DNA from: Saccoglossus kowalevskii
Taxonomy: Eukaryota; Hemichordata; Enteropneusta; Harrimaniidae
Direction: 5' to 3'
DNA length: 43,311 nucleotides
Assembly (NCBI RefSeq): GCF_000003605.2
Contig: NW_003144288.1
Span: forward strand, 520,763 to 564,073
Part shown: piece after piece, positions 471 through 34,373 of the stretch
Numbering within the stretch: position 1 is the stretch's first letter
Layout of the letters: every line of letters begins with the position of its first letter
Made by a program: the position numbers and the translations under genes
Notes under the pieces: generated by a model
Told to the model about the DNA's origin: nothing
The model's input: only the letters and a program-made list of their open reading frames with translations
Database searches by the model: none

Positions 471-576
471 CTACCGTTGATGGTGACTGGGACTGCGGGA
501 ACGGTGTCTGCTGCTTCTGTGATGATATGGCGATCTGGAGCGGTGGCGGTAATAATCATGTCTTCTGTCTTGTGAA
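471..576 (-). CDS. SRRM2: SRRM2 exon 13 (RS-rich C-terminus, stop)
   Basis: 106 nt: one base completing Ser505 (AG|T), 34 codons and TAG at 473-471. It encodes SQDRRHDYYRHRSRSPYHHR and SSRHRSRSPSHHQR, unmistakably the RS style of the gene. The acceptor (CATTCTCATGGTCAAG) is moderate. The next AG downstream would put a stop in frame, so this AG is the only one that works. The stop codon lies inside a possible donor (ACG|GTAGAA), which would also be phase 2, so the gene may continue to the left. Confidence 0.82.
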
Positions 577-3500
577 CTTGACCATGAGAATGGAAGTAAG
601 ATTGGAGAATAAACAACAAACGGACAAGAAACACAGATAGTACAACAAAATAGATCAATAAATACATGATACTAATAATACCAATAAATAACATCTACTA
701 CTATACATGTATAACTGATTTGTCTCAGCCCCTCTTACAAGTATACCGATAAATTTAATTTGCACCTTAATTTTGAACATTTTGATGATTTTGCTCATTT
801 TTCCTGTAATATCGCAAGAACTGTATTCCCTGTGTTTGAATGCATGATATTTTTCCATTTTCAGAAGATTTAAGTGCGTTTGTCTCACACTGAAGGTTGT
901 ATTCAGAGAAAAAAACTTGGCTATTGCACTTCAAACAGAGGAAATACTGTTAATTTAGAGACTATCAGAGGGGTGAGCAAACTGTACACCTGAAAAAGAA
1001 AATGTAATATATATAATATTGGTCAACAGACATAATAATAAAACAAAGATTCCTTTTCAGTATTCCAGGCAGCATGTTCACGAAAATGAATCAATTATTA
1101 AGTTTACTGACTATATACAATGTATGAGATAAAATGTCATGTGTTCACAGAAAAAAATTTAAATGAAATATCAAAAAAAAGACAACAGTGAGGGTTCTCG
1201 CTCACAACTTGTCAAAAATTACCTTGTTATTCGCCTGGGTTCCAGATGACTTGGTGAATCTCGCCTTTTCCTTGGTGGTGACCAACTTTTCTCATCTTTT
1301 GGTGAAGTGGAGCTCTTTCTTGTCTTTTCGTGCACCCTAGATGGGCTGTAATTTGAGTAACTGGGACTTCGTCGATATCCACTATTTTGGGAGCGTGAAC
1401 GGCGATGTGGTGAATAACTTGATGAATGGCGTCTCTTTGAGGAGTGACTTCGTGATCTAGAACGTCTACGTGAATAACTGCGGGATCGTGATCGTCGTTT
1501 TGGACTGTGTGACCTATGTATAAGAAGTAGATTATTTCATGCTGAATGACACTCAACTCTGCTGTATTCACAACCTAAGCTTAATACTACAGAATCCTCA
1601 CTAAAAGTCACAACTTTGCAGCATACCAACCAAACAAGTCTTAGTGCATGCCTCTACTTAGTTTTCCAATTTGCGCATTTTCTTGGCTTGCTTAACACTG
1701 CATATTTCTATTTATTATGTCCAACTGTGAGTACTCCTAAATACTCTACTAACTTTCCACAACCTTACTTGTGTACCTAACTATGTTGCACTTAGTATGC
1801 TTAGCTCTCACATTCCTGCCTTTCTAACTCTGCGCATTATTTTACTTGCCTAACTTTGTGCATTCTTACATAGTACGCCTAACTCTACAGACTCCTACCT
1901 ATTTTGCGTAAATTAAGCAATTCTATAGAAATACTGTACCTCCTTCTCGGTGAGCGACTTCTGTCAGGAGATGACGATCGGCTGTAGCGTCGTCGTCTTG
2001 GTGAGGAGGACACTCTTGATTTCCTAGTCGACGATCTGGACTTTTTCTCCGGACTGCTACTCTTATGGTGCCTAAAAACAAAATAGTTTTATAATGTAGC
2101 GAGATCATTTGTTTATTGAATAGGTACATGTAAATCATTTTATTTATTCTCTCAGTTTCTCACTAACCTTTTTGGTGATCCATTACGTGATCGTCTGACT
2201 TCTGGTGATCGGCTTCTCGAGTGTGACCTGTCAGATTCAGAGCATGATCTGCGTCCTTTACCTTTTGATGATTTAGACTTGTGCCTTCTAACAGGACTGT
2301 GGGATCTATCAGAAGAAGATGACCGACTATCTCGTCTGCTTTTCTTTTTTGACGACCCCCTCGACTTTCTATGTCGAGAAGATGACCTGTGAATGTATGA
2401 ACATATTACTTGAAAGCAACAGGAAGGGGAATACTGTTGGGGTATTTTACTTCAGTATATTTGTAACACCCATTATCATATCATTTTGCATGTAAACCAC
2501 TAAATTACATGTAACATAAATTGAAATCTTGCAATAAAAAGGGGTATCCTGGACAAGAATGCTGCATATTCATAAGGAAGGCCATTGCCATTGGCCATTA
2601 TTCCTTCTTTAATGGTTGCAACTCTGGGAGGATATTTTGTGTTATTTTTCATACAAAATTTCGTGAAGATTATAGATAGAACCTAAATTCCTGATCCGAA
2701 AACCATAAATATCATTGTAGGAGTCAGTAAGAGGACAACTCAAGACTTACCCACTGGAGACATCACTGTTTGAGTCGTAGCTACTATCTGTTCCACTTCC
2801 AGATCCCGATGATTCATTCTTTCTATGATGCCTGTGTTTTCTGGCAGGAGAATAGCTGGGAGACCTAGAAAAAAAAATTGAAATTTTTACAAACTTCAGT
2901 TAAAAGTCAAAATTGTGTGAAGCAAGAGAATTCAAAGTAAATACTGAATAAAACTAGAACTGTAGTACAATACGAATGCAGCGTAACAATTACCTTTCAG
3001 CTGACTTTGCCTTTTCAGAAATACTTAATTTTTAAAGCTAATATCATTGTCATCAATTTATTTGTAGTACATTGTATTTACATAATTTAAGCTATTGATA
3101 TGACATATTTCGACAGATTACTTTGGTGGTTTTGAAAACAAGCTAAGTTAGCTTTTAAAAAAACCTGAAATTTAAAGCGAACGGGTTGTCATCAGTGTAC
3201 ACGTGGGAAGTCAGCCCCATTCGACGATAACAACACACGCTAAAAATGCAAAGGCTCATGGGTAGATGCTTATTTGTAAACAATGACATGCTATGGCCAT
3301 CTGACGCATGCGCAGGTGACGACTCCCGGCTTTAAGCTAAACGTTAAGTTTATCAACAGTACTGTTAATAAATCCGAAACTAGACTTACCTTTTGAGAAC
3401 TATATGGAAATACTGAATTAAATGCTCAGACAAATAAATCTGTCTTTAAAACGTGACAGTCTATTATCACAATTAAAATTGTTTTGAAACTTCAAAATTG

Positions 3501-6500
3501 TCATTACATAATTTTTTAATGTACAGTTTATTTCAAGAAATCTCACCTTTTGCGATGCTTGCGTTTTTCCTTATGCCGGCGTCTGGATGGACTGGATGAT
3601 CTAAGAACACACAGTATTGATAAGTGTCAGTATGCACTCGTTTTTTCACAATAAGATGATGTACTATTTGAAAGATGATGATAGCGTATTAAATACAACT
3701 GTATCATTAGCTACCATGTGGCATTTTAATGGGTAGTGCATGCACAAAGCAATAAAGTAACATGTACATATAATTATAGCTTTGATACAGGCATGCCCTT
3801 TATTACATCATACGGTTATATCAGCTTATCTTAAACAATGTTTGTGTACTTCCATATACAGATATATATTATTATTTTCTCTTTTTTTAAACTGCATATA
3901 CAGTTGAATGTTTGAAACTATTCAAAGACAAGCAACAAGGAAGGAATACGGTAGATGCAAGCTACTCACCGATGTTTTTTTCTTTTTCGAGAAGACTCCG
4001 ACGATCTATCATGAGAATCAACGAAATGATATGTACATTATATACCATGCTTGTAAAATGATATATAACTGAAAATGTCTCAAATCATAGTTTTAGCTTG
4101 TAGACATAACAGAAGTAACCATATACCACCAGGTTTGATAAGTAAAAGATGAGAACACCCAAAACGAGAGGCACACATATTTTAATACAAGGTGAACAAT
4201 GGAGTACATACAATGCGCCCCACTGCATATGTAGCCAAATGCATGTACTGATCTGAACAAAAAAATAAAATGAAGAGAGCACCAAAGCACCTAATTTAAT
4301 TTTAATGACATGAGCTGTATGTGGGGAAAACACAACAGGAAATGGTAAGGTTAACATAAGATCTAGTTGCATTGTCAGTAATGCGAGAATTCTTCTATTT
4401 TATTATTTTGTTTTTTATAAAAAGTCGCTACACATACGTGTACAATTACGAAAGGACTTTAACAGCATCAACAGCACAAAGCATAGCAATGCAACAGACA
4501 GAAATGGAACAACTAAAAAATTTATAATAATCATAATAATAAAGTGAAACCAAGAAAAGCATATGGGTGTGGTAGTGGGGATAAGGAGAGCCGAGATGCT
4601 ACCTAGCATGCAAGGATAGAATGAAAATGCGAGGACGGAGGGGTTTCATGGTGTTAGTCACAGGAGAGGTCAACTGCACGACCTTAAACAGTCAAATTTG
4701 AACAGGACAGCAGGATATGAGTGGTCAAATAAACAACAGGATAGACGATGACAAAGTTGAGTAGTAGTGAAAGAGGGAAAACATGCTACTGGCAGGGTTA
4801 TTTTTTTCTCTCTTTTTTTTTTTTTTTCAAATGCATTCCCGTCCTTTTCTTGATATGATGCTATGAATTAACACAGATTACATGATATGGTACCTGGATT
4901 TGGTAAATCACAAACACTTAGAGCATTACCTTGGAAAGAGAAATTAATGCCTGCTAAAATTTAAAGACTAAGCAATGAAGAGAAACGAAAAGAGATATCT
5001 TGGAGTTATTTTGGCTTTGTGGTTCAATTCCCTGATGTATATTTAAGAAAAAAAAATAAACACTTCTGTTGCTCCATGTGCAAGCAGATTTCATGAAATC
5101 AACATTAGTACATTGTTGCGGAACATGGAAAAAAAAAATTATGAAAACATACGGCTGAAGTACGGCTGCATAAAAAAATAACTTAGAAAAATAAACAAAA
5201 AGATAATCATGAGATGTATGTTATAGTTTGTTACATGTATGTAATGATTGGGAAAGAAATTAAATAAAGAATTGAGCAACAGTCTACATGCAGTGCTATT
5301 TTATACGTAAAATTCATTGTTTTGTTTTCTTGTCGACAAGGAAACCAGTATTTATGTAAAGCAGAACATTGATAGTAAAGTCTCACCATCAGCAGGCGGA
5401 AGGGTTGGTACACAAGTATATAGCAGAGGACACAAACTACAGAGGTTAGTGCTTACTTTTACCAATCCGCAGTCGTATTTCAACTTACCGGTCACGTTTG
5501 CGTTTGTGCGATTTTTTCTTCTTCTCTTTTCTGACTGGCGACTCACTAGCGGATCTGCGAGAGAACATTAATAGATCCTCAGCAGAGTCGGTTTTATAGA
5601 CGATACAGGACCACATAACAAAGATGATGACGTTAGAGAAAACAACTTAAATGTACAAGGCTAGAATAAATGATACCGTATAACATGCTTCTTTTCTGAC
5701 TCAATAAATTGACTATTCACCATAATAACAACAATTTGTACTGTTAAAAAAATAAATTTAACTTGAAGTTTGTCCTCTTGAATCAATAAAATTTCATTAA
5801 ATGGCACACACTGAGTTTGGTGTTTTGAAATGAGTAGAACTCGTGGCAAAAAACATACCAGGCTTACAGATATCATGAAAAAAAAGGCCTTAAAATCGAT
5901 TTAATAGAAGGTTTCACAAAAATAATGACAGAACAGTACATTTTTTTTCTTAAATAACAAGTTGAACAAATAAAGCCATTTTTACAGAGCCAGTATAAAC
6001 TACACAAGAACCATATACATACACAGTTAAAAATAACAGAACAACTGATCATTAGAATTATTATAATTATATCCACTTTATTTTTTTCTCCAGAATTCAT
6101 ATCCAAATGGTTTTCACCACAGTGGAAGGTAGTCCTTACCTAAGGCCTAGGTAGGCATTGGACGTATGTTAAAAAATAATCGCAGAATTAATAAAAAAAA
6201 TGTTATAACATATATTGGGTAAGTAGACAATGGTTGTGGAGTTAGAACATTTTTTTTTTAATAATAAGGGGATACATTGTGTGACCCTGGGTAATGTATT
6301 GGATATGTTGCCGGCAGAGGCTGAGGGGTTGAAAGTTGGCCATGTACAAGCAGTTAATCATAAAGAAATGTATTGCAACTTTTCATGGAAATAATCTCTA
6401 ACATGAAGAAACAACAACTCGAGAGATACAGTCGATATCATGGTATTTGTTGAGTCTAGTCACTAAAGGGATAAGTGTTGAAATGTTCTGTTTTGTAGTA

Positions 6501-9500
6501 ACAGTTTAAAGTCACATTTTGTAGTTGTTCACATAATAAATCCACATAATTGTCAATTTTCGACAAAAATTGTAAACAAGATTTGTAGCCAATAGGAAAT
6601 TATGTATTTTGGGTCAAAATTATCAAAAACAATATATAAATATACATGAAATGGGGCAACATTTTGCTTCAAATATTTTACTTAATTTTCATATGTCTAT
6701 GAATTCCAGTCAGTTTTTGCAGCCATGATGAAGCATGGTTCATAACGATTTAATAAATATGGGATCATGAAATTTGTCTTGAAAGAGGCAGGAAATGGAA
6801 TTATACAATTTTGAAAAGCAGAACAAAAATCCGGTTCCAACAATCAAGAAAAGCAGGACTGTGACAAATAAGTCTTTTTCAGTGTTGCTCGTGAAAAGTT
6901 CAAGGAATTTGGTTTGTAACAACTTTTTTAATGCAATTTTCTCTTCTAAGGACCATGATACAGCTGTATCTCAGCACTATAAACTGAAATTATTATTTAG
7001 AGAAATCAAATTTAAACTGGAAATGCAATTGTGTTAAAGCATGTGTAAATATGCAAAATGCTCTGATGGATATAACAGCTAAACCGGAATAAACTGGTTT
7101 AAACCAGCATTTGAAAAGTAAATGTATGTATATTTCAATATATGGAGTTTAGCCAAACCGGAATGAACTGGGACAAACCAGTGCTTGAATGATAAATGCA
7201 AATTTAATCCAACCTAGAATCTAGAGCCAGATTAATAATTAAATGCAGAACTGATGTAAATTTTATTGTTGTTTCTTCAGTTGGGAGACATTTTAACATG
7301 ATAATGAAATACAGAGTTAAAAACTTGGGAAGTACCTGAATGATAGCTGAAATGTACAAATGTATGTGATGTGTGACTGAACCTTTTATTTTAAGCTCCA
7401 AACCCAAGATGCACCAGCCAATATAGCATTAATTCACAGTCCCTCTATCAGGGACTGTGATTAATTCAATACTATGACATTTCGCAAAATATTTTGAATA
7501 TGTTATTGGCTGTTGCATGGTAAGTTCTAAATGAAAGCAAAAGTTACAAATGTATGAATGAGACAGCAAGCTTTAATTTCACTAAATGTGAGGGAAATTT
7601 TTTTCACAAATTTCAAAAATACACAAAGCACTTGTCAGATGTGTATATCAGACTAGCCACACTGGAAATCAACCTGAAATCATAGCTTGCTATCTACACC
7701 ATGTTATCGGCGGTTACACTGCGTAGACGTGTCCTCTACCATGCAGGCTATCCTATGTGAGTGCAAGAAGGCATGCTTGTCGAGTTCACCAGTGAAACAA
7801 ATATACAATACAACTATTTTCAAAACAGCGCTGCAAATTCACAATCTTGAGTGCAAATGAGTGTTAATTTTATTTTTAGAATTGTGAACGTCATCACAAT
7901 ACTTAGTTGAATAATTACACTAGGAATTAATATTTCTTAAGGTTAAAAAGACTGATAAAACTGCAACACTGTCAGATAACCTGTTGTAGTATCCTAGTGA
8001 ATAAAAGCTGTTTCATGCGACCCTGGTGCACTAAAAACACTTGTTGGAAGTTTACACAGGTACAGTATATCAGTCAGATGCTTTATCACAAAATACTTTT
8101 AATGGAGGAAAAAAAAGAAAGGGGGATGGACGATCAGTAAGTAGCAGCCTAGGGGGTACTTTCCGTCATATTCCAACGAATTATAAGAGGTCTTGAAAGA
8201 TTGAGCTACAGATCCTTACCTCTTTCGTATCCTGTTTTTCCGTTTTTTGCTGATTGTAAAATGACAGTCAAAGCAAATAGTATTAGGGCATGCATACTCA
8301 ATGGAGGTGATGCAAGACAAGAAAAAGGTGAAAGTAAAACAAAAAAAAACAAGGGTGTGTTAGTGAAATCGGCATTTTGTTTTATATTGGCATATATACC
8401 TGACCTGCATGTATAATGCCCCCTTGCTGATGCACAGGTCAATATCACTAATTGAAGGTAAATATGATGGGGAACAGGTAAACACAAGAACGATAATAGG
8501 TCAACTTACCGACTACGACCTCTACCAGACTTCTTCTTCTTACGTTTTGGTGGTGGAGATGGAGAATCACTTGGTTCACGGATTATACTACAGAGAAAAT
8601 AGTTCCATGTCAGTACTCGGTTGATAGTTCTAACAAAATACATCATTGTATCATGTTGTGAATTATAAATATCAAATGACAACTAGGAAAGGAAATATAA
8701 AATGTTTGACCTTTATTGGGTCAATGAGACTGTAATTTTATTAATTTTTTCAATCATGAAACTTAAATTCAGCATTTCCAAGTTCAGCAGACCATTGCCC
8801 AGTACCAATCAATTGCCTAGACGAGAGGTCAGACATGGGTCAAATTGCGTGAATATATTAAAATATGAAGACGCGCTAGTCAACATCGCAATGAATGTAC
8901 ATGTAGCGAATACACCACCGGTTGATAAAAGTGGTACTCTTTTTCAGGGACTTGTAAAAAGTCAGTCGTTTTTCGTCTTTTGAAAGGTGAGAACATGTGA
9001 ACAATAGAATTATAATCATGAACAATGAGCATCGGTTTACCCCGGTTAACCCTGGATATGTTGGTGGTGACCTTCAGGCGGCCAAGGAGCTTATCCTGAC
9101 TTCCCAGGTGTTTGCGGAGCCCCACGGAAAACCAAACAGTTTGATTATGGTCACTTCCCTTATATGTAACCACACGTGCGACTTGTACAGAGGCACACAT
9201 ATGACTTGTATGGAATCACACACGTGACAATGAAAGTGTGTTGTACCTGTACTGTTTCTTCTGCTCCTGTTCATCCTTAGCACGTTTGGATGAATCAAAT
9301 GCACTACCATCTTTGTATTCGTCACTGATTCCAAACGCTTCACGTAGTTTGGCATTCTTTTTCTCATTTGCTTCAGCCAGCTGGTGGGTCTCCGTCACAC
9401 TGCAAGTAACCATATTTAAAACAATATCAGTCATTAAACAGTCATCAAAACTGAAACAGACATTTAAATTATGCAAATCATATGCAAATTGGCTATAGAC

Positions 9501-12500
9501 AAACACAGTAAAGATGAAACAGAAACAAACGTGCATGGTTTTACAGCATGCGTAAAACTTTTGTCGTTGTACATATCAAAATGATGTGTCCTTGGATATT
9601 TTGAAAATAAACAGCTGACAATCGGCTAAAGGGAAACACCGACAGTTGTATACTAGAAGTGGATACACCGTGCTAAAATCACAATAGTTAACAATATAGT
9701 CTTGTGTGGAACAAAATTGTTGGCAGCTATACTATGCTACTGAATAGAACAAACAAATTTTAAAAAGCAAGTCACTAATATAGATACACCACAACCTTAT
9801 AAACTATGATAAATAAATACACCCTTGATGTGTACAAAGAGCACAATGCAGGTACAATATATTCTATTGATTGGATTTCAGGGTGTAACTACGATAATTG
9901 CATTTTTTATTGCCAACGGACGATCAGCGTTATGCATGTATTGCAATGATGATAATTCTTCGAGTTTTGATAAGGATTGCACATCCGATTCAAAGATAAG
10001 CCATGCAGAACTGCCTGATATAAATTACAAATTACACAGAGGTATTCATAAATTCACTCCAACAAACTGCCATATATTGTACCCGACTGTCTACACTCAG
10101 TGAACTCAGTGGAAATAAACATATCAGAATTGTTAATATAAAATACAATAGCAAGTAGTCATGGGACACCGAATGGCTCACCATATGCCTCAATTTGCCT
10201 TTGTGGGAAAGAAAAAAAAAATAGGTATAAAAGGCAAAACGGGAAGACATTAGTATACAATGTCTTTACACCGATTGTCAATATGATGTGGTTCTGTATG
10301 ATGCAAAGAAGACGGGAAAGAAGATGTCTGTCTGTTTGTTTACATGTTCGGAGCATATGATTGGTTAGTATTTTTTGATTTGATAATATAGCATGTTATA
10401 TAATGGATTATTATATATATTCATCATATGCACTTGAATACATGTGTACAATTGATACTGTAAACAGCCAAATTTTCGCTGCTTGGAATTCTCATGATTT
10501 GATAGTATTCAGGAAGAAAATTTCACAACATTTACTATGTTATAGGATCCCAGACAAATTCTGTGATTTTTTTAATGACTTGCAAAAATTGCGAAATTAA
10601 AGCATTTACAGTACCATACTCAAAGATGTTTGTTATAAAAAAAAGAAAAGCAGAAAATAATTATCAAATATTAATACAATTTTTTAACACACAACTGTAT
10701 CTTTCAAAATTTGAGTAGTGAAAATAAAATCCAACGAATATATTCGTTTTTCCCATGTTTTGCACTCTACTCATCAGGAATCAGTGAAAATAAACTCCAT
10801 AAAAAACACCCAAAAAGTCTTCTCAGCGACTATTAATTCCAGCTAAAATAAAGTTCTCACATTATTGCCTAATAGCTGCCTTCCTGACATGAATACCTTC
10901 CATACCCATCAATCATAATCGAACAACCCTTATCAATATCATTAATAACTTCACTGCTAATGGAGAACCATCAAAGAATGTTTTATAAACATGATATTCT
11001 TCAAACCTTTCATTTTAATGAAGAATATTTAGCAACATTAAAAACAATAAAAAAATATTTATTAAATATAAAGGGCACACTCCACATTAAGTGTGTATTG
11101 GTTTATCATTAGATACATACATGTACAAGCGAAAGCCACGTGAATTATTCATTGTTAATATACTGGACACTGAGGGCGCACTCCACACTAAGTGTGTATT
11201 GGTTTATCATTTGGTACATACAAGTGAAAGTTATGTGAATTATTTGATATTGAAATAGTTGACAATGAGGGCGCACTCCATACTGTATAGTTTATCATTT
11301 ACACACTAGTGAAAAATAGCTACAACTGTATTATTCATGACTGCAATAAAAAGATACATGTACATAATTTATCAAAAAAACAGAATGCTTTGATAAACGC
11401 AAGACCTCTGCGAGGAATGGCCGCTTTCTCATTAATTGTAGCAATTTCATTTGTTGATACATGTACATGCATCTCGGGGTCAGTTTGGTGAAATTGAGCA
11501 ATCCATCCGAGACGAAAATATCAAAGATATTAATTATGCCAATCATGTACATATACATGTGTACCTTTAAATATTGCATGAGAACCCTGAGAATGTACTG
11601 AAAAACACTGAATAGCAGAAATTTTCCAATCACTTCAGAAATTTGTATCATTACTTGTCATTGAGGATGAAAACGGGATAGCAATGAGGATGGCATTCCT
11701 CAATACAAGAAACAGACCACAATTAAAAAACAGTATTGAGCTCCATGGCTTCAAAAATTGAACATATACAGTTATAAAAATACCACTACTATGTCAACAC
11801 TGCTAATAATAAACAATATACTAAAGCTTATAATTGCTTTGACCAGCAGAAGTAACATCAGTTATCGTCTAATAGCTGCCACCCCTACTTTGAAATGGAT
11901 TGATCCAATACCACGCAACCATAATGGAATAACCCTGGTCAATATCATCAATAACTCACAACTAATGGAGAGCTGACAAAAGCATTTTATTAACAAGACG
12001 TCATTCTTCAAACCATTCATTTTAATGAAGCATATTTTTTCACACATGAGATGGAGAAGGTACCGCAGCAACAAATTACACGAACAATAAAAAATATTTT
12101 CATTTGCCAAAGGAAGGCATAAAAAAGGATTTTGAGCTTTTACCGGTGGTAAAAACCGAGCTCTTTTCTAAATTAAGTCTCTAGGTTTCAGCATAAAAAT
12201 TAATTCTGCTGTAAAAGTAGCAGTCCTTTCATCAACTACATAAAATCGATGACCATATTACCTGTAAAATGTCAATATTAGAAAAGTAATCACAATTTAT
12301 GTTGTCATAAAACAGACTGTGGATGTTCAATTTTAAAAAATAATTGCACACAGTTTTTAGTTAAATATTGCCACCATCTGGAAATTGGACAAACAAGTTA
12401 ATAGTACCGGAGAAACTAACATGAACAGCACAGCATACTTATTTATCAAAACAGTTGTAATTAACGTTTAAAACAAATTACACTTGTTATCAACATTCCC

Positions 12501-24500: not shown

Positions 24501-27500
24501 CGGTGCAAAGAAACCAGGCATACATGTACAATGTACTTTTTGTAGGGAATACATGTACTTTCATTGAGAGCCAAGAAGAATGCTCATTTTGCACACTTCC
24601 ATTTATTTCAGTTGATAAAAGCAGCCCATACTGGCGATAATGATACTGAGGAAATACAAAGTCATTGTTTCCATAGAAACAAATGAATCTGTAGGGCTTG
24701 CCTTCTCTTAAATTTTCTGTATTTTTTTTTAGAACCATCAAGGTCAGGGGTCAGGGCAATACTACATGTAATACTTAGATAATGAATTCAAACATCAACT
24801 AAGACACTTTTTAGTTGCGACTGTCAAATAAATTCAACTTTTCCGTCAATTTGAAAGCAGATTCACATTGGTAATCTACATCATAAGAAATTATTTTTCT
24901 AGAAATTTTCTTAATGACCAGCATAGAAAAATAAAACAAGAAGGCCGACACTACCACTATTCATCATACAGGTAAAAGGGCTGGTTGAGTTTTTAATATC
25001 TAGTAAAATGTGGTAGACCAAATATGCTAATGTTGTATCCATGGAATAAAAATGAAAAATTTATTTCAAACGATGTATTGATTAATTATCTTTCTGTAGG
25101 AAATGTACATTATTGATTGCGAAAACCACTTTTATTCACCAACCTGTGCAATGGACAGGGAACATTAATATTTCATTTCCAACCAATGGCAACAGGGTTG
25201 TACCAGTTATGAATGATGTACAAAAAACAGAAGAAAGGCAGACATAACAAACAAAAAGCTGTGTTCAGAAAACAGAAACACATAGATACAGTTGTAGTGG
25301 AGAGTCATGACCTGCTATTGCTCAGTAAACTGTAATCTGCTTACAACTCCATTAGTAAGTTACTTCCATGAGACAAGTACACTATAATATATGATCTAAT
25401 GACCTGACAGTCTTATCACAAATGTTGTAATATATTACTGGTAAGAACAAAAGTAGAATCACTTGTCATGACAATGGCATATTATCTTGTTTTTCTTACA
25501 TTCAAGTCAAATGCAAAATACAATATCTTTCATATTTTTAATGTAATTTGTAACAAATCAGTTCCATGTATTGGACAAAATGAACCACACGTTACAGTGA
25601 AAATCAAATTAATCAAGAAGATAGAGACGAACCATTGTAATACATTATTATGATTAAATATGATAATAAAGAATGTCAGTGAAAAATATGTAAAATTTAT
25701 AAATATATCGGTGATCACAATAACTTATTTTAATCAACATATCAAATGATCCTCAATCATTTAATAATTTTCATTCATTCATTCATTCATTCATTCATTC
25801 ATTCATTCATTCATTCATTCATTCATTCATTCATTGTGAAATATGACGAGAATTTGTCTTCCCGGATGCCAAATTGCCATGGTTACAGTGGGATGTTTAC
25901 TTACACTGGTCTGCTCTCTTCATCATCTTTCACAACTACACCTTCTTTGTCCATCAGCATCTGCCGAAAGATTGCCACCTTCTCTTTAACTTTGTCTTCC
26001 GGATATCTGATTAAATGAGAAAAAAAAACGTAATCAGTGGTTTGGAAGCACAATCGATAATGTGGTTGACCCCCTGCCAGGCTGAGTATGTCATAGACTG
26101 ATAGGGAGGACCAAAACCATTTATCAAGAATAATTCACTTACATATACAACAGGAAAACCTTACTAAAATCATGCAGGTGGTTATATAAATCCTAGCAAG
26201 GTTGATGCTGGGATAGCACATCACATTGCTACGAATATTCACAATAATAGAAAGATTGTCCCACACATGGAATATGGTTTCCATGGCAAAGTGCACTATT
26301 TGTAAATTTACCATCTGCACACAAAAAATAGAGACAACAATGATGACATTAAAAGTTGGGAATTGTTGCATGTACAAAAATATTAAATTATAAAAAAAAC
26401 CCATAACATATTGGGGAACCTGTGTCTTTAGTTCAATGTGAATCAATCCACGTTATTCTTAAACGCAAATCATCCATGATCTATCATAGGGAGTGAAGGG
26501 ATAATACCGCAAAAGACAAACTGGGTTTACAGACGCCAGAATAGTTGCTTTGATGGTACTCTACTGATAAGCACAGCGGCGCCATGGGGGTAGACACACA
26601 GGAAATACAGATTGCAGGAAATGTCGCCTGGGGAAAATTACATTACTAAGGTTATGATGATATGGCTCTAGGAAGTTGTATCAGTTTATATGACTATGAT
26701 ATTTAGAAGTACAGCAAATTAATCCAGACATACAGGGTATATAGAATTGTACATGTAAACGTGACAAAAAGGTAGCATATAACAGTTTGCATGGCCAAAG
26801 CCCCTGGTGTATCTGGAAGCACCGTGACTATGAATGTGTTAACAGCTACATGTATGGAAAGTTAAAAGCAAAGTGAACAGTACGTCAGCTATGTTTAAGT
26901 TCAATATTTATTTTTTTTCACTGAATAATATTCATTTGTTCTAGATAGTATGAATACTAAAATCCTGTTTGCTCATGGTAATCAAGTTTACGCATCCAGA
27001 CAGACAACTATTTTATCAGTAGAGTAAATCACTGGGAATATCTTTGCTATTTCCGGTAACACTCATTGGAACATTTCAGGAAATTTCTTTTCTTCAGGTG
27101 TTCATGATGAATTCAAATTTATCCATCCTGTAGTATACTGTGAAACAATTTAATTGCACAACAGACAAATTTTTCACAAATTTCAAGTCGATAGCAATGA
27201 AAAAACTAAACAGCATGTCAGCATAATGAGTGAAATCAACAGGACAGAAAATGATTGACAATCAAATTATGAAATTGGAAGTATGATGTATCATATTTGA
27301 CTGCTTCGCTGTGCAAATATTTTTGGCTGGCATTACACTACCGTAGGTTTTTTACACGCATGCCTGAGTTCTGAGCGACAATTTAACCATACTTCCAGCT
27401 ACAGAGCCTTTATTTGCAGAATTGCAAATTGCTTGGAAACGGAACTAAACAAAGCATACATGTAGGGTAGCATTGCAACAGCAACTATCCTAACAGGGTT

Positions 27501-30500
27501 CGTATTGGTATTTAAAGTGATTTCCTCCTGATCAGTTGTGTGTAAAAATGATCTTAAAATGTCCATGTGCATGAAATTTTATGACTGATTGCCATGGCAA
27601 CCAAAAGACACATCAACTAAAAAATGGTTGGAATGTGTGATGAAGCCTGCCTGTCTTCCATTATTTTCCGAAATACAAATGTCATTTAATATCTTTATTT
27701 TAATTGTTACATTTTGCTATTTTTAATATTTTATTCTGAATTAAATGTACTAATTTTCAGATCATGATAATTTATGAGTGAGGAAAGATGCATCAGAACA
27801 AAAAAATAACTTTTTTTACATTTCTCGGAAAGACAGCGAAGTAATAAATCACTGCATTTGAGAGGGCTCTTCAGCTCAAATGAACAGAGAAACAAGAATC
27901 TATTTTCAAAGAACACCAAATTAATACTCAAGAAGAGCAGATAGAAACTGACAGAGGACGCAGAGCCAAATAAAAGTTGTCATGGTTACTTGTAAGTGGG
28001 TCACCTGAAGGCATGTCTGCATCTAAGATCAATAGGGAAATTAGCATACGGCAATAAACTAGTGGATTAACTCAGCATCCCTTTGTGAAAAAACAAGGAT
28101 TACATATTAAAATTGAAATTGAAAAAAACAAATTTCAATCAACACAGGATTTGAGGGTGAAATTACAGAAGCTGAAAATATGAGCAGAAATGTAGGGGGT
28201 CTTTCGATAACATAGTCTTACTGAGAGAGTCCCTAGCCTTTACACCAGGCAAGAAATAATTTGAAATATCACGGTTGACGCTAATAGAGGAAGTAAAGAA
28301 CAGAAATTACACTGTTATAATACATAACACGTACTACTACTGCATTAACTGATCCACACAAAACAACTTAACTAGTGTTCCATTTGGCCATCCACAAAAA
28401 AAAAAATCAAATTTGCATTCCCACTTCTACGTTTTTAGCTTGTTTTGGAGAGTGATGTTACTCAGACATGCAAAGTGGAAACACAACTTTCTTTTTATGC
28501 TGGAATGGTGTAATCAAATGGAACTGATTCAAGATCTGACCCTTCCAAACCAAGCTGTCATGAAAAGGATAGTGAAATATGTTTCAGGTTGACTCAAAAT
28601 CTTTTTTTCAGTGAAACTATTATACCAAGTTGGATATCAAGCAAGTATGTAGTACATGTTTAGCTAAATTACTCTGCGCAATTTAGATATGTACATGCAT
28701 GTGCACATGTCAGTTTTGAAAGCTCGCTTAAATGTTGCGCTGCAGTCATGCAACCCCAATGATGTATACATCAAATACTGCGGATTTGGTGTGGTTATAA
28801 TTAATGACTGAAAGTCATGAATATGCAAAATATTCTAATTAGATGTGCATGGGAAGCAGTAGTTGTACTGCACTAAAATACTACAGGAGAGAGGTAAGAA
28901 TGCGATGAATAGGGCTAGATATTGACAACTTAACAATCTAGCACAACATACAAGTGTTCATGATCATTTCTAATCAATCAGCATTGTACATTCACAAAAA
29001 ACATTTTAACTGTCGTTTGAATCCAAGCATTCCACAAAACAAACATTGTAAAGTCATATGACAAACTGACATGAAAAGGCAATGTCTTAGGGATGAAGAT
29101 AACAACAATCAACCACTTTCGTCAAAGTTCACTGATTTCTACGCCAAGGAAACAGAGTAATAGGCATTGATGGAAACACTTTGTCCTTCAGAGAATTTGT
29201 CTGAATGTTTTTGATGAGTAATTAGCTTGACATCTTTATCATTAGTGTTTGTATATTGAAGCCCCAAGGTGTTATTACTTATAGTTCTGACATCATGAAT
29301 ATTCATGTTGGTTTCAATGATAGCTACAATGTTTCGAACATCATCATGAATATTCATGTTGGTTTCAATGATAGCTACAATGTTTCGAACATCATCATGA
29401 ATATTCATGTTGGTTTCAATGATAGCTACAATGTTTCGAACATCATCATGAATATTCATGTTGGTTTCAATGATAGCTACAATGTTTCGAACATCATCAT
29501 GAATATTCATGTTGGTTTCAATGATAGCTACAATGTTTCGAACATCATCATGAATATTCATGTTGGTTTCAATGATAGCTACAATGTTACNNNNNNNNNN
29601 NNNNNNNNNNNNNNNNNNNNNNNNNNNNNNNNNNNNNNNNNNNNNNNNNNNNNNNNNNNNNNNNNNNNNNNNNNNNNNNNNNNNNNNNNNNNNNNNNNNN
29701 NNNNNNNNNNNNNNNNNNNNNNNNNNNNNNNNNNNNNNNNNNNNNNNNNNNNNNNNNNNNNNNNNNNNNNNNNNNNNNNNNNNNNNNNNNNNNNNNNNNN
29801 NNNNNNNNNNNNNNNNNNNNNNNNNNNNNNNNNNNNNNNNNNNNNNNNNNNNNNNNNNNNNNNNNNNNNNNNNNNNNNNNNNNNNNNNNNNNNNNNNNNN
29901 NNNNNNNNNNNNNNNNNNNNNNNNNNNNNNNNNNNNNNNNNNNNNNNNNNNNNNNNNNNNNNNNNNNNNNNNNNNNNNNNNNNNNNNNNNNNNNNNNNNN
30001 NNNNNNNNNNNNNNNNNNNNNNNNNNNNNNNNNNNNNNNNNNNNNNNNNNNNNNNNNNNNNNNNNNNNNNNNNNNNNNNNNNNNNNNNNNNNNNNNNNNN
30101 NNNNNNNNNNNNNNNNNNNNNNNNNNNNNNNNNNNNNNNNNNNNNNNNNNNNNNNNNNNNNNNNNNNNNNNNNNNNNNNNNNNNNNNNNNNNNNNNNNNN
30201 NNNNNNNNNNNNNNNNNNNNNNNNNNNNNNNNNNNNNNNNNNNNNNNNNNNNNNNNNNNNNNNNNNNNNNNNNNNNNNNNNNNNNNNNNNNNNNNNNNNN
30301 NNNNNNNNNNNNNNNNNNNNNNNNNNNNNNNNNNNNNNNNNNNNNNNNNNNNNNNNNNNNNNNNNNNNNNNNNNNNNNNNNNNNNNNNNNNNNNNNNNNN
30401 NNNNNNNNNNNNNNNNNNNNNNNNNNNNNNNNNNNNNNNNNNNNNNNNNNNNNNNNNNNNNNNNNNNNNNNNNNNNNNNNNTCAGAGATGATATGATTCT

Positions 30501-33500
30501 GACATGCATTCCAAAAAATCAAAAATGTGTCATTTTTTTGTTATCATTCATTATTGATGAATGATACACTATATCAAATACAAAATCTACATATACTACT
30601 AATCCATTATCGAACTGAAGTTGGTGAAATAATTATTTTTACAGAATATCACAAGGTCAGAAATTAATCCATTAATTTTCTTGCTATAATATGAAGTGCA
30701 CAGCAAATTTATTAGCAAATTTATTCATTTTTTCTGGTTGGAGTTTATTTTGAAACAAATCAATAGGACTTGTATTCACATTTGCTTATTAAAAACAGGT
30801 TTAAAGCCAAAAAAAAAAAAAAAACCCTACCCACCCATATTTTAGGAAAAATCAAAAGTTTATTTAATTAGGTAAATAAGTTATTTCTATGCAAATTAGC
30901 TGTGTTAATTATTTTATTAATCCTGATGATTGCCTAAGTAATCATGCTGAAACTACTTATGTAAATTATTTTGTGTACAAGGCATGATGGTGATGTTGAG
31001 TAAATATTAATAACTGTGGAGGTCATAAATGGGGAAAAAAAAAACATACATAAAACCACATGCTTTCTTTGGCCAAATGTGATGTACGATGTAACAGTCT
31101 TGTCTAAATACCCACTGAAAGCCTTAATTGTTCTCCTCATTCTCGATAAGATGACACAAGAAATTAGGAATCGCTATCTTTTCACTGGGGTGGCAAATCT
31201 CTGATGCATTCGTTTCGCGCATAATACGACTAATTCTGTTTACTATCGAGTAAACTGTATGTGACAGCAAATCTCTTGGTAATTGTCACAAAAAGTCAGA
31301 AGGTTATCAACCTCCAGGTAAAGTACTTTAGTACTGACAGGTCTATGAATCTGTGCGTGGACTGTGACGTCAGTATCTGGCGAATGAAAGCTTTTTTTAA
31401 CTACGATAACCTTAAAAAGTTAATGGGTTGTAACATTTGCATAACAAAATAATTAAATCAGACATTTATGTAATTTTCAAAAGAAATTAGAGATTTATAT
31501 CCAATGATTTCAAAGAATTTATAGGTATACATGTGTCATGCAACTTTGATATCTGTATACAGTGATATGCGATAAAGATTCTAATCTGTGTATGCGTCAA
31601 TCAAACATATTTCCAACCAATGGAATCACAGCGAATAATTGTACCAGGGGTAAAAGTTCAATTGCAGAAAGGAGTGAGATTATCACTGTAATACAAAATG
31701 CAATAAGCATTATCTACGTAATACAACTGCACTAATGTTTTGTGAATATGCAAGGACACTAGTAAAACAGCCCAACCCTAACCAGTCTGTCCAAAGAATC
31801 ACTCGTTCGCCGTTGTGTGATTACATCTCAATTTGTGTTAATTAAGCCAATCGCTGACAAAATTTGGCTGAATTCGTCCCTTTTGTGTGGAAAAATTGCT
31901 GTCACTGATTGGCTCCCGAGTTGGATGATGGTTTAGTTTTCAAAAACCTCAGGAAAAAAAATTTTCTTTTGAGAATTATCATCCATGTTTAATATAATTA
32001 TATATACATGACAGGGTTTATTAGGGTTACATCAATGTAATGCATCATGGGAATACAAACTCCTTAGATTATAAATTTCATAATAAAGTTCAAATAGTAT
32101 TCATCAAATCTTTCAGTGCCAGGAGACCCCGTCATTTCACACTAACATAGCTGCGATCAATAAACTAAAACCTATATATTCTCCAGATCTCCTAGACAAT
32201 TTTTAAAAACAAATTGGATCAAGATCAATAGCAGCACATTTTTTGAAATTGAAATTTTTTTCTTGAGAGATATCCCATTAAGCAGCCAATTTACGAAACC
32301 AGTCTCAACTTAGATCTGCCCTCAAGATATTGAAACTGGTGGGAGAATTACATTATTTTAGATGCAATTTACTTTGCTGAAGTGTACAATTTAGGTCAAG
32401 GTGTGCAATTTATTTTTCCTGAATGGTGCAAGAATCCCAATGGAAATGGATTTTATTTGTGCTGACACAAATAACAGATGCATGTTTTTCATTTGATGTG
32501 CACCCTCAGAGTGTGTCCAACTGCTGGTTTGACGCCCTCTGCACACAAAAGACAAACAACTGACTAAATATTTAGTTCACTCATACATGTAACACATAGA
32601 AGGGCACTTCCTCATAACTCATTATTTTAATACCTTTATTCTGATTTTAGCATCATCACAGAAAACTGCGTGTGCGATCAAATTACATATTACTGTTATT
32701 TTCCCTTTAAATTATAACCAAATCTCAGAAAACCAGTCGAAATGGGAAGGGAATAAAACATCATAATTTGTGACTGAAATTTCATTTAATTTGATTGCGA
32801 TGGTAAATCTAATTATTGTTCAAATACAGACTTGCTGAAGATTGAAAACAAATTTGCAGTTTGTCGGCCATTTTGTTAATACAGTGTATTTCACAATAGT
32901 ATTTTGTTTCAGATTGATTGCATAAAGACAGCATAACAATTGATTTATGTTTTGTTCATTTGCATATGTAAAGATATTTATTTCCAGCGCTCCCGCTGCT
33001 ATCCAATTCGAAAAAAGCTCAATTTATATTATGTCGTGATTTTATTTGACATATTAAAGTCTTGTAATTGGTTAAAAGACGAAATTAAATTATTGAATAA
33101 TTAATTTTGAATGACAGCAAAGTAGTACCTGTGTCGTGTAAGAATTTGCAAAAGGTGTCCAGCAGACCAGTCACCACTCTAGGCAGGGAAATTAAAAACA
33201 CAAAAGAATACCATTCCTGTTTGTAACCTTGGTAACTAAGGCAACCATGATGTAACTTAATTTAAAGGACAAGTCAATGCTGTAATTATGTTAGTACACA
33301 TGTGTAGGTGGAATGCACCCTGACAATAGGAGAAAACAGATAATTATTTATACATGTAGATCTCAAACTATTGCTACTTGCTGTACATCGGTACTCCCAC
33401 AGCGCATCCCACTTTTTACATAACTTCCTGGTGTAACTGTGCACTGTTATATTGCCTGTGTAAGTAGTGATGTAATCTTTCTACAGTTCACCATTCACCA

Positions 33501-34373
33501 GGGAGTCCCCCCGAAGTACACAATGGTTCATTTATTGACCTTTTGAGCTGAGCATGAATCGCTCGCCATGTGGGTTTTTAATTCCAATTCACTAAGTGAA
33601 TGGCCCAAAGAAAGTAAAACTAATTTCTAGTCACAACTCACAACATTTTCATACTCGCACATATTGAAATAAAAAATAATAATGAAAAAATTTATTCTGC
33701 TATTCTAATTTCATTGAGACAAAAAGTACCACAGAGAACTTTCACATATTCTCAACAACAAAAATCCTGTCTGGTAAATATCACTAGAGAGGGAAAATAC
33801 AGATTTATGCTTAAATAGATAAGTGTCTATTTTACCAGTTCGTAACCTTTCTCTGTTATTAATGATGGTACGTTAGTCTATTCTCAGAGGTCGTGTACAG
33901 CATGCTAAACCACCCTGCCTTGTTAGTGTACCACTGTGTAAAAACAAACAATTCCTCAAATACCAGTATTTGCGATATTTGAGTGATGACAGGTCACAGT
34001 ATACTGACAGATAAACCAGGTAATCTACATCTATAAAATGATATATATATTGTATATTTTCTAAAATTATTCCTAAATTTTGGAATATGTATTGTTTTCA
34101 GGAACATTTTTGGTGATACATGTATAATACTAACCCTTGTTCCTCCATCAGCTCCTGCAGTTCAATACATTTCAGCTCCACTTTCCTCTTCCGCTCATGG
34201 TCCAATATCTCCTGGTTTGGCTTCTTCAACATCGCTTGGTCCAATTTCTGTAATTCCTCTTCTGACTTGTAGTCTATTTTGTCTTTGTGCTTTTTGACGA
34301 ACGACATATTCCGTGTCACGTAGCCGTTCGTCCCGCTGCCCCGCGGCGTGGTCAGACCAATACCGTTGTACAT
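471..34373 (-). CDS. SRRM2: SRRM2/SRm300 (Cwc21-type) spliceosome protein, 13 coding exons, whole-gene model
   Basis: The spliced product is 539 aa. Residues 1-20 carry the MYNGIGLxTPRGSGTNGY start characteristic of SRRM2/Cwc21, and about 50-110 form the cwf21 domain (KKPN, ILDHERKRKVELK, then VAIFRQML). Residues 114-165 match the VTETHQLAE...KLREAFGIS block of vertebrate SRRM2, and a YSIIRE motif parallels YSLVRE there. The remainder is Lys/Arg-rich, then RS-rich. In this family the N-terminus docks on the spliceosome core (yeast Cwc21 contacts Prp8 and Snu114), and vertebrate SRRM2 scaffolds nuclear speckles. All 12 introns have GT/AG borders, all are phase 2, and the exons sum to 1620 nt with no internal stop. 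The protein is far shorter than vertebrate SRRM2 (about 2,700 aa) because the giant RS expansion is absent, although further 3' exons cannot be excluded. The gene assignment is near certain; the outer RS exon borders are inferred from splice consensus and frame. Confidence 0.95.
577..1222 (-). other. SRRM2 intron 12 (646 bp), or 3' region with an alternative terminal exon
   Basis: GTAATT at 1222 to TCATGGTCAAG at 577. It contains a second, stronger acceptor (TTACATTTTCTTTTTCAG) ending at 990, followed within eight codons by a stop at 967-965. Confidence 0.7.
1223..1513 (-). CDS. SRRM2: SRRM2 exon 12 (long RS exon)
   Basis: A 291-nt exon, 2-2 phase, 96 complete codons. It begins SHSPKRRSRSRSYSRRRSRS and continues with RS, SSYSPHRRSRS and SYSNYSPS motifs. 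It ends in a mixed basic stretch (KSWSPPRKRRDSPSHLEPRR). The longest open frame over this interval is in another frame and is a shadow. Acceptor TTATACATAG; donor ACAAG|GTAATT. Confidence 0.9.
1514..1939 (-). other. SRRM2 intron 11 (426 bp) with degenerate tandem repeat
   Basis: GTACAG at 1939 to TTATACATAG at 1514. From about 1689 to 1905 it is built of degenerate units of roughly 27 bp sharing CCTAACTNTG. Confidence 0.8.
1940..2071 (-). CDS. SRRM2: SRRM2 exon 11 (RS domain)
   Basis: A 132-nt exon, 2-2 phase, separated from exon 10 by only 96 bp, the shortest intron here. It encodes HHKSSSPEKKSRSSTRKSRV, SSSPRRRRYSRSSSPDRSRSP and RR. Acceptor TTTGTTTTTAG; donor AAGGAG|GTACAG. Confidence 0.9.
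2168..2386 (-). CDS. SRRM2: SRRM2 exon 10 (RS domain)
   Basis: A 219-nt exon, 2-2 phase, 72 complete codons of Ser/Arg/Lys-rich sequence. It includes SSSRHRKSRGSSKKKSRR, SSSSDRSHSPVRRHKSKSS and SHSRSRSPEVRRSRNGSP. SP and RS dipeptides are typical SR-protein-kinase and CDK-type phosphosites in this family; individual sites here are inference. Acceptor ACATTCACAG; donor AAAAG|GTTAGTG. Confidence 0.92.
2387..2750 (-). other. SRRM2 intron 9 (364 bp)
   Basis: GTAAGT at 2750 to ACATTCACAG at 2387. Nothing else seen. Confidence 0.85.
2751..2864 (-). CDS. SRRM2: SRRM2 exon 9 (Ser/Gly/Asp-rich linker)
   Basis: A 114-nt exon, 2-2 phase. It starts SPSYSPARKHRHHRKNE and continues with a Ser/Gly/Asp stretch (SGSGSGTDSSYDSNSDVSSG). 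This is the only acidic, non-basic segment between the KR block and the RS block. Acceptor TTTTTTTTCTAG is very strong; donor AGTGG|GTAAGTC. Confidence 0.9.
2865..3546 (-). other. SRRM2 intron 8 (682 bp) with cryptic exon candidates
   Basis: GTGAGA at 3546 to TTTTTTTTCTAG at 2865. It contains two unexplained splice-like segments: a strong donor at 3389-3388 (AAAAG|GTAAGTCT), and a 30-nt in-frame candidate at 2994-3023. Confidence 0.75.
3547..3600 (-). CDS. SRRM2: SRRM2 exon 8 (SR head, basic tail)
   Basis: A 54-nt exon, 2-2 phase, encoding R-SSSPSRRRHKEKRKHRK-R. Acceptor TGTGTTCTTAG; donor AAAAG|GTGAGA. It shares the plan of exons 6 and 7 (Arg-Ser start, basic end), suggesting these exons arose by duplication. 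Confidence 0.86.
3601..3969 (-). other. SRRM2 intron 7 (369 bp)
   Basis: GTGAGT at 3969 to GTGTTCTTAG at 3601. Nothing else seen. Confidence 0.8.
3970..4005 (-). CDS. SRRM2: SRRM2 exon 7: 36-nt Ser/Arg-Lys microexon
   Basis: A 36-nt exon, 2-2 phase, encoding R-SSESSRKRKKH-R. Acceptor GATTCTCATGATAG is moderate; donor CATCG|GTGAGTAG is good. Supported by frame, composition and its position between similar exons. It was too short for ORF detection. Confidence 0.82.
4006..5488 (-). other. SRRM2 intron 6 (1.5 kb)
   Basis: Bounded by GTAAGT at 5488 and TTCTCATGATAG at 4006. It is AT-rich with a poly-T run near 4800-4830. The open frames at 4085-4609 on the minus strand have no family character and are judged chance. 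Confidence 0.8.
5489..5554 (-). CDS. SRRM2: SRRM2 exon 6 (Lys/Arg-rich)
   Basis: A 66-nt exon, 2-2 phase, encoding R-SASESPVRKEKKKKSHKRKRD-R. A short Ser/Glu head is followed by a basic tail, the layout shared by exons 7 and 8. Acceptor TGTTCTCTCGCAG; donor GACCG|GTAAGTTG. Codons at both joins are Arg (CG|A or AG|A at the start, CG at the end). Confidence 0.88.
7076..7199. repeat. Two-copy imperfect direct repeat with a 14-bp palindrome
   Basis: AGCTAAACCGGAATAAACTGG... (7076-7124) recurs as AGCCAAACCGGAATGAACTGG... (7150-7199), about 75 bp apart. The first copy contains the perfect palindrome CTGGTTTAAACCAG (7094-7107), which is degraded in the second. Origin unknown. Confidence 0.8.
7428..7465. 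repeat. Inverted repeat / strong hairpin
   Basis: Arms ATTAATTCACAGTCCCT (7428-7444) and AGGGACTGTGATTAAT (7450-7465) pair along their full length apart from one bulged T, around the 5-nt loop CTATC. It lies inside intron 5 and would form in the transcript. It could be a small structured RNA, a footprint of a mobile element, or chance. Confidence 0.85.
8220..8249 (-). CDS. SRRM2: SRRM2 exon 5: 30-nt basic microexon
   Basis: A 30-nt segment between a good acceptor (GACTGTCATTTTACAATCAG) and a near-consensus donor (AAAGAG|GTAAGGAT). It is open in the required frame, is phase 2 at both ends, and encodes R-KKRKNRIRK-R, the same composition as its neighbours. The joins make Arg codons on both sides (CG|C and AG|A). 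No protein homology can be claimed at this length; the call rests on splice sites, frame and composition. If it is skipped, exon 4 joins exon 6 in frame. Confidence 0.75.
8510..8587 (-). CDS. SRRM2: SRRM2 exon 4 (YSIIRE motif and KR-rich run)
   Basis: A 78-nt exon, 2-2 phase. It completes Ser165 (AG|T), then reads IIREPSDSPSPPPKRKKKKS and GRGRS. The join QYSIIREPSDSPS parallels PYSLVRESSSS of vertebrate SRRM2, which also runs into a poly-Lys block, so the exon is supported by homology as well as by splice sites. Acceptor TTTTCTCTGTAG; donor AGTCG|GTAAGTTG is near-consensus. Confidence 0.93.
8588..9246 (-). other. SRRM2 intron 3 (659 bp)
   Basis: Bounded by GTACAA at 9246 and TTCTCTGTAG at 8588. 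It includes a small imperfect 24-bp tandem repeat around 9171-9229. No other feature seen. Confidence 0.85.
9247..9399 (-). CDS. SRRM2: SRRM2 exon 3 (conserved KLREAFGIS block)
   Basis: A 153-nt exon, phase 2 at both ends. It completes Val114 (GT|T) and encodes VTETHQLAEANEKKNAKLRE, AFGISDEYKDGSAFD, and a charged tail (KRAKDEQEQKKQY). Nearly every position of the first 30 residues matches or is conservative to vertebrate SRRM2. Acceptor TTACTTGCAG; donor TACAG|GTACAAC. It follows the 16.5-kb intron 2. Confidence 0.95.
10456..10613. mobile_element. Short non-autonomous inverted-repeat element, TACTGTAAA ends
   Basis: Starts TACTGTAAACAGCCAAATTT and ends with the reverse complement of TACTGTAAATGCTTTAATTT. 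Both ends then contain TCGC. It is 158 bp with no coding capacity. No flanking duplication is visible. Consistent with a MITE; its superfamily cannot be assigned from this copy. Confidence 0.7.
10714..10857. mobile_element. Truncated relative of the 38877-39089 element
   Basis: The sequence from AATCCAACGAATATATTCG to TTAATTCCAGCTAAAATAAAG parallels 38940-39075, including the shared AAACACCCAAAAAGT block. The TACTGTAAA termini are missing, so this looks like a decayed or truncated copy. Confidence 0.65.
10866..11060. repeat. Dispersed direct repeat, copy A
   Basis: About 195 bp similar to 11867-12100 in the same orientation. Shared words include CTAATAGCTGCC, CAATATCAT, CTAATGGAGA, TTCATTTTAATGAAG and CAATAAAAAATATTT. 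The copies are about 1.0 kb apart and clearly diverged. Family unknown. Confidence 0.75.
11073..11310. repeat. Tandem repeat, about 2.4 units of 95-101 bp
   Basis: GGGC(A/G)CACTCCA recurs at 11073, 11174 and 11269. Each is followed by an AGTGTGTATTGGTTTATCATT-like segment and then GTGAATTATT. The third unit is truncated. Confidence 0.85.
11867..12100. repeat. Dispersed direct repeat, copy B
   Basis: Partner of 10866-11060, carrying the same ordered words with indels. The DNA between the copies (including the 101-bp tandem repeat) might be an insertion or simply inter-repeat sequence. Confidence 0.75.
16533..16682 (-). other. Unrecognised exon-like ORF: possible alternative first or cassette exon
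   Basis: On the minus strand the sequence runs from an acceptor-like AATATTCTAG to a donor-like ATCAT|GTAGGTGTC, 150 nt in all. It is open, comparatively CpG-rich, and contains an ATG with A at -3 (16667-16665). The encoded segment begins MSATVTNTARNRILFERFW and continues with basic and Ser/Thr-rich residues. I do not recognise the protein. Read in the frame demanded by SRRM2 splicing it is phase 2 at both ends, so it could splice into exon 3 in frame. It could instead be the first exon of an unrelated nested gene, or chance. Confidence 0.3.
20829..21925. repeat. Tandem array of 300-bp units with a distinct tail
   Basis: The word GTCAGAGATA ends at 20940, 21240 and 21540, a spacing of exactly 300 bp. 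Each unit repeats ATTAAAACAAAATGGCC, CCAAGTTTGAACAAAATC, AATGCTTGAT and CAATATATCTGTATA in order. The last unit ends in a different tail with a CAGGTCTGGACGCACACAAG motif and CCCCC/GGGG ends near 21890-21925. No ORF of transposase type was found. Confidence 0.88.
25771..25835. repeat. (ATTC)n tetranucleotide microsatellite
   Basis: About 16 uninterrupted copies of TCAT/ATTC, 65 bp, with no visible interruption. It begins 70 bp downstream of the exon 2 donor on the transcribed strand, where it reads as (GAAT)n RNA. Confidence 0.98.
25905..26006 (-). CDS. SRRM2: SRRM2 exon 2 (second half of cwf21 domain)
   Basis: A 102-nt exon, phase 2 at both ends. It completes Gly80 (GG|A) and continues YPEDKVKEKVAIFRQMLMDK, then an acidic linker (DDEESRP). 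This matches the region that follows EEQGY in vertebrate SRRM2 (EKVATFRLML). The acceptor has an eight-T tract and TCAG; the donor is CCAGT|GTAAGTAA. It is too short to stand out as an ORF, but family similarity and both splice sites agree exactly. Confidence 0.95.
29291..29590. repeat. 51-bp minisatellite, six near-identical units, truncated by the gap
   Basis: The word GAATATTCATG recurs at 29297, 29348, 29399, 29450, 29501 and 29552, exactly 51 bp apart. The units look identical to the base until the last four bases before the gap. Each unit contains the perfect 14-bp palindrome CATGAATATTCATG. Since 51 is a multiple of three, frames stay open on both strands and create spurious long ORFs across the gap. 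The array sits inside intron 1. Its true length is unknown because it runs into the N block. Confidence 0.97.
29591..30481. other. Assembly gap (891 N)
   Basis: An unbroken run of N. The left edge is inside the 51-bp array; the right edge (TCAGAGATGATATG) shows no unit of it. The simplest reading is that assembly failed in the tandem array, so the gap length is probably an estimate. Confidence 0.99.
34135..34373 (-). CDS. SRRM2: SRRM2 exon 1 (start codon, Cwc21 N-terminus)
   Basis: The start codon is at 34373-34371, with a G at -3. The exon encodes residues 1-79 plus two bases of Gly80. It contains the invariant MYNGIGLTTPRGSGTNGYV start, a basic stretch (KKHKDK), and the first part of the cwf21 domain with KKPNQEILDHERKRKVEL and a helical ELQELMEEQG end. 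The donor is GG|GTTAGT at 34134-34133. Read past that donor, the frame loses all family similarity, which confirms the boundary. This is the best conserved part of the protein across eukaryotes and the segment that binds the spliceosome. Confidence 0.96.

Follow-up and report, generated by a model that had tools for sequence, protein, structure and literature searches.

Twelve phase-2 introns in the SRRM2/3/4 gene of Saccoglossus kowalevskii: a probable outcome of inheritance, codon composition and frame-keeping

All twelve introns of a cwf21/RS-protein gene in the hemichordate Saccoglossus kowalevskii interrupt their codons in phase 2, and this run is probably the joint product of inheritance, codon composition and the keeping of the reading frame, with regulated choice of exons likeliest at the 3′ end of the gene. 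The gene was followed in a window of 43,311 nucleotides, i.e., the whole stretch of DNA analysed (contig NW_003144288.1, positions 520,763 to 564,073). A run of twelve out of twelve provides a clean case for separating the effects of composition, of inheritance and of selection for frame-neutral exons, and a literature search on SRRM2 with “intron phase” led to no earlier report of it that is known to us.

In a preliminary description of the sequence the gene had been named SRRM2, a name supported by the phmmer match of residues 1–184 to residues 1–191 of human SRRM2 (2.8e-64), but too narrow on its own, as human SRRM2, SRRM3 and SRRM4 correspond to a single-copy gene here; SRRM2/3/4 (Srrm234) pro-orthologue is the more fitting name. 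Its predicted product fits a cwf21/RS protein of the ordinary kind, associated with the spliceosome and carrying the eMIC (microexon-enhancer) domain at least in part. The cwf21 domain (PF08312) was placed by profile search at residues 57–100 (57.9 bits against a cut-off of 23.2, 1e-15), the RS part consists of 30% Ser, 23% Arg and 13% Lys, and in the host genome (572 Mb, 4830 contigs) this gene was the one cwf21 match in a search that scores the best candidates only. The eMIC domain was reportedly defined in a 2019 paper. Exon 12 is read as resembling its first part: the whole protein matched the SRRM_C profile with 22.1 bits (2.3e-4) and exon 12 alone with 19.7 bits, both below the cut-off of 27, and the best SRRM_C match genome-wide was again exon 12 (20.8 bits, E 0.33, likewise below the cut-off). 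Two of the 14 prokaryote genomes that served as controls also gave sub-cut-off matches to the profile, so that the score alone is weak. A second SRRM_C-like place, on contig C2559, was set aside, the RS coding there being unconvincing. According to passages of PMC8797185, the eMIC is supplied by Srrm234 through post-transcriptional processing in nonvertebrates and by Srrm3 and Srrm4 in vertebrates.

The gene model was rebuilt from the sequence as 13 exons on the minus strand (34373–471), with a reading frame that stays open for 539 residues and GT-AG borders in 12/12 introns. Its exons are as follows.

Exon 1, 34135..34373, minus strand: 239 nt with the start codon; MYNGIGL...EEQG, where the conserved N-terminal region begins; donor in phase 2 (GG|A).
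Exon 2, 25905..26006, minus strand: 102 nt; the cwf21 region ends here; phase 2-2.
Exon 3, 9247..9399, minus strand: 153 nt; VTETHQLAE..., conserved relative to human SRRM2; phase 2-2.
Exon 4, 8510..8587, minus strand: 78 nt; the basic tract begins; phase 2-2; recovered by the neutral scan.
Exon 5, 8220..8249, minus strand: 30 nt; basic and microexon-sized; phase 2-2; recovered by the neutral scan.
Exon 6, 5489..5554, minus strand: 66 nt; phase 2-2; recovered by the neutral scan.
Exon 7, 3970..4005, minus strand: 36 nt; phase 2-2; split Arg codon at its start, His as its last whole residue; recovered by the neutral scan.
Exon 8, 3547..3600, minus strand: 54 nt; phase 2-2; recovered by the neutral scan.
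Exon 9, 2751..2864, minus strand: 114 nt; phase 2-2; recovered by the neutral scan.
Exon 10, 2168..2386, minus strand: 219 nt; RS-rich; phase 2-2; recovered by the neutral scan.
Exon 11, 1940..2071, minus strand: 132 nt; RS-rich; phase 2-2; missed by the neutral scan.
Exon 12, 1223..1513, minus strand: 291 nt, ending ...RRDSPSHLEPRRIT; partial SRRM_C match (profile 12–55 of 67), below the Pfam cut-off.
Last exon of the preliminary model, 471..576, minus strand: 106 nt with the stop codon; RS-rich; weak acceptor; possibly a diverged second part of the eMIC.

All 12 introns are in phase 2 and all 11 internal exon lengths equal those listed before, which bears out the preliminary description on the phase run, on the lengths and on the frame-neutrality of the internal exons, every one of them being 2-2. 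That all of these exons are multiples of three is a consequence of the introns sharing one phase and carries no separate evidence. The observation that most joins of the basic part fall inside Arg codons was likewise confirmed for junctions 4–12, where the split codon is Arg in 7/9 and Gly and Ser in the remaining two; three joins of the RS part (TCG|C, CCG|A and TCG|A) lie off the AG|G consensus. The neutral scan was an exon-chaining script applied to the range 9600–1 and so set that exon bases next to a splice site carried no information. It recovered eight of the nine exons 4–12 with identical borders and phases, so the phases are not an artefact of picking AG|G sites. The acceptor of the last exon (576) scores 0.2 bits against 3.0–10.3 for the 11 other acceptors; this leaves the phase of intron 12 untouched, as that depends on the donor.

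A scan of the sense strand for further hidden RS exons yielded none that was convincing, whether over 34373–1 (best 45 of 242 candidates) or over 9600–1. Between exons 8 and 9 lies a 24-nt open 2-2 candidate (3329–3306, minus strand), of low script score, that may be due to chance. A search of the window found no tRNA and no RNA family that reaches its gathering score. A tandem repeat at 29226–30540, with a translated unit of about 17 residues (MNIHVGFNDSYNVSNII, plus strand), adjoins a run of N at 29591–30481.

The genome-wide share of phase-2 introns is about 0.22, and at this generic rate twelve out of twelve would have a probability of 1e-8. For an RS protein, however, this rate is the wrong null. 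Phase 2 is expected to be the commonest phase in RS coding because of the Arg (AG|R, CG|N) and Ser (AG|Y) codons, and the passages of PMC4446445 describe phase-2 junction codons biased to AGG=Arg across 91 eukaryotic genomes. A composition null was built in which every possible junction of the coding sequence was weighted by the exon-side splice consensus, using approximate matrices. Under this null, phase 2 should make up 0.51 of the junctions in the RS part and 0.15 of those in the N-terminal part. With a sharpness of 0.5–2 the probability of 12/12 came to 4e-6 to 2e-5 and that of 9/9 in the RS part to 0.0003–0.018, subject to the same approximate matrices, and the three N-terminal junctions stand against their composition, with a phase-2 expectation of 0.06–0.24.

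Other RS genes of the same genome served as controls, i.e., the RS-region introns of an SRRM1-like gene (phases 2,2,2,0,2,0,0) and of two PRP38-like genes (0,2,1,2 and 0,2,2), read by eye from printed frames. Phase 2 was found in 8/14 of these introns, phase 0 in five and phase 1 in one, a phase-2 share that agrees with the composition null (0.51). Against these controls the one-sided Fisher test gave p=0.013 for 12/12 and p=0.030 for 9/9. For two introns of the SRRM1-like gene the reading by eye overrode the script chain, and the script version, with 6/14 in phase 2, lies further from the composition estimate and gave p=0.002 for 12/12 and p=0.006 for 9/9. For four of the 14 control introns the reading comes from a single side; with these left out, the remaining ten, each read from both sides (6/10 in phase 2), gave p=0.029 for 12/12 and p=0.054 for 9/9. 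In an ARGLU1-like gene, kept outside the 14, the intron at the N-terminal-side border is in phase 2 and the two within the R/E-rich part are in phase 0. Adding the border intron (9/15) changed the values to p=0.017 for 12/12 and p=0.037 for 9/9, and adding all three (9/17) to p=0.006 and p=0.016, respectively. Control searches with LUC7 and pinin were uninformative, there being no match here and none in the control genomes either. In the SRRM1-like gene (contig C264) the RS part itself contains a run of phase-2 junctions beside its phase-0 ones.

The phase run had been described as far from expectation, which overstated it, as RS codons make phase 2 the commonest phase (0.51; 8/14), while a residue against the other RS genes is indeed left unexplained (p=0.013). 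RS coding thus accounts for much of the phase pattern and, judged against this small control set, probably not for all of it. A stricter reading holds that the phases are purely a by-product of Arg and Ser codons meeting the splice consensus, with neither history nor selection involved; the expectation for the RS part, the control share and the AGG bias of phase-2 joins (PMC4446445, in the passages on junction codons) all speak for it, yet it appears unlikely, since the full run stays improbable under the very null that grants composition its due and in the comparison with the other RS genes, and since the N-terminal junctions run contrary to their own composition. We infer that the residue is most plausibly due to phase-2 introns that were inherited and to the keeping of the frame.

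Evidence on inheritance came from relatives found by exon 1, of which there was one among the genome contigs (L001) and none in the viral contigs. L001 is a contig from a pond sample that carries a eukaryote-type cwf21 gene (3384–4432) with introns of 24–36 nt; it is filed under a Verrucomicrobiaceae MAG, in which it is probably eukaryotic contamination. Its second intron interrupts, in phase 2, the same Gly codon as intron 1 of Srrm234 here. Its third intron, near TETHQ, may occupy the site of intron 2, phases 0, 1 and 2 scoring 356, 352 and 350, and nothing in the present gene corresponds to its first intron (phase 2) or its fourth (phase 1). On these alignments the N-terminal phase-2 introns appear to be old, the sharing with L001 being established for intron 1 and possible for intron 2.

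For the RS part the comparison consists of two introns of one paralogue, human SRRM4. Its exon 5 is given in passages of PMC13387927 as r.438_464, 27 nt, from which simple arithmetic puts the introns at c.437 and c.464 both in phase 2, and skipping of exon 5 keeps the frame. This exon (27 nt) and exon 7 here (36 nt) are both 2-2, begin with a split Arg codon and have His as the last whole residue, a resemblance that makes homology of the two a lead. For the intron sites and phases of human SRRM2 no source was found in the literature search, and passages of PMC11070786 do not give them. The notion that phase 2 might extend beyond this organism was thus upheld in part, namely by introns 4 and 5 of human SRRM4 (from the same portion of PMC13387927) and by the intron 1 site in L001; the phase-1 fourth intron of L001 counts against it.

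The proposed explanation combines three causes. Old phase-2 introns would have been inherited in the conserved N-terminal part; RS/KR coding would place the splice signal most often within AGR, CGN or AGY codons, i.e., in phase 2; and the basic/RS tract would have been grown or kept as 2-2 exons between phase-2 introns. In a phase-2 chain only 2-2 exons can be gained or skipped without loss of frame, and therefore frame-keeping would favour 2-2 exons.

The preliminary description had suggested growth by exon duplication, in which one or a few 2-2 exons would have been copied in tandem to expand the RS tract, the copies keeping their phase and later diverging. This reading would account for exons 4–12 being all 2-2. 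It was examined by comparing exons 3–13 in 55 pairs with codon-shuffled controls. At the DNA level similarity was near chance (4/55 pairs at p<0.05, the lowest 0.033), and at the protein level there was a mild excess (8/55 pairs against 2.75 expected), with the lowest value, 0.003, for exons 10 and 11, which fails correction for 55 tests and belongs to a pair with p=0.18 in the DNA; no pair at either level survived correction. The nine exons 4–12 furthermore all differ in length, and RS composition by itself makes exons alike. The suggestion therefore did not hold up as an account of the tract, and duplication seems improbable as its main source, though the excess at the protein level leaves room for duplications so old that composition alone remains.

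A related proposal is that the exons are actively used as combinatorial cassettes that set the RS/KR length by tissue. Any exon can be skipped with the frame kept, the 30- and 36-nt exons are near microexon size, and the 27-nt 2-2 exon of human SRRM4 skips in frame (PMC13387927, in the part dealing with exon 5). Skipping of that exon was, however, reported there from splice-donor-mutant cells, the controls giving the expected product only, and in the fly gene the choice of isoform, as passages of PMC8797185 describe it, sits at the 3′ end. The phase chain makes skips harmless to the frame and says nothing on whether skipping is regulated. Combinatorial isoforms, and with them a range of RS lengths, are possible; their active use by tissue is improbable. 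It is a long shot, too, that this gene, whose product promotes microexon splicing, has in its own KR/RS tract old in-frame exons of microexon size (of 30 and 36 nt here and 27 nt in human SRRM4) that have stayed in phase 2 from a time before the vertebrate lineage parted from that of this animal, so that SRRM2/3/4 activity may tune its own RS length.

Under the favoured combination of inheritance, composition and frame-keeping, the likeliest regulated step would lie in the eMIC region, where one donor (1223) would have two partners to choose from, a proximal exon with a stop (989) and a distal exon. Intron 12 measures 646 nt, and exon 12 ends with ...LEPRRIT at position 55 of 67 of the SRRM_C profile. 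Within this intron lies an acceptor at 989 of 12.5 bits, the strongest of 1897 sense-strand AGs; on the antisense strand two acceptors among 2211 are as strong. Two candidate features go with it.

965..989, minus strand: candidate proximal alternative end, RRIT[R]CTVCSPL then stop, read from acceptor 989.
754..759, minus strand: ATTAAA, a possible poly-A signal of the proximal end.

Splicing to 989 adds eight residues, the split codon counted, and then a stop, and would cut the eMIC short. On the distal side, exon 12 joined to the last exon (576–471) extends the SRRM_C match to profile position 66 with 24.0 bits (cut-off 27); 0/19 shuffled tails reached position 66 and 0/19 scored 24.0, the best shuffle scoring 23.9. 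The last exon is also alike at 4 of 11 positions to a stretch of human SRRM4 (p=0.015). Directly to the left of the window, just downstream of the gene end, 19,431 bases read N (contig 501332–520762); no eMIC-like peptide motif was found in the readable 10 kb past this run, and a better eMIC exon may lie within the 19.4 kb of N. ELAV-like TTTNTTT motifs numbered 6 in 1222 nt near the 3′ end versus 5.06 per kb over the gene, i.e., there was no enrichment. In the fly Srrm234, one donor in the first eMIC-coding exon is joined to a proximal non-eMIC or a distal eMIC exon, and the proximal one, which is without eMIC, either ends at a poly-A site of its own or works as a poison exon (both from passages of PMC8797185). 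By analogy, a choice between a proximal and a distal 3′ end like that of the fly gene is probable here, and acceptor 989 is consistent with a predicted neuron-restricted 3′-end choice.

For the moment the result is a modest one on gene structure, in a family already known, and it corrects the duplication reading. If the phase-2 chain were conserved across phyla, a regulator of small exons would itself be made of small frame-neutral exons.

Among known systems, human SRRM2 is alike over the N-terminal 184 residues considered above and has a chain of 2752 residues against 539 here; it is not known to carry an eMIC. Human SRRM4 is, by the passages of PMC8797185, a paralogue that has one. Compared with Drosophila Srrm234, the distal exon here (576–471) resembles the eMIC weakly, and the proximal end is deduced from an acceptor, a stop and a poly-A-like site. 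Drosophila Srrm234 (CG7971) and the present gene nonetheless agree in their cwf21 domain, their RS tract and an intron that divides the eMIC region, and in the fly gene, as in the candidate arrangement here, the alternative ends share a donor and a proximal non-eMIC exon precedes the distal one (PMC8797185, in the passages on the fly gene).
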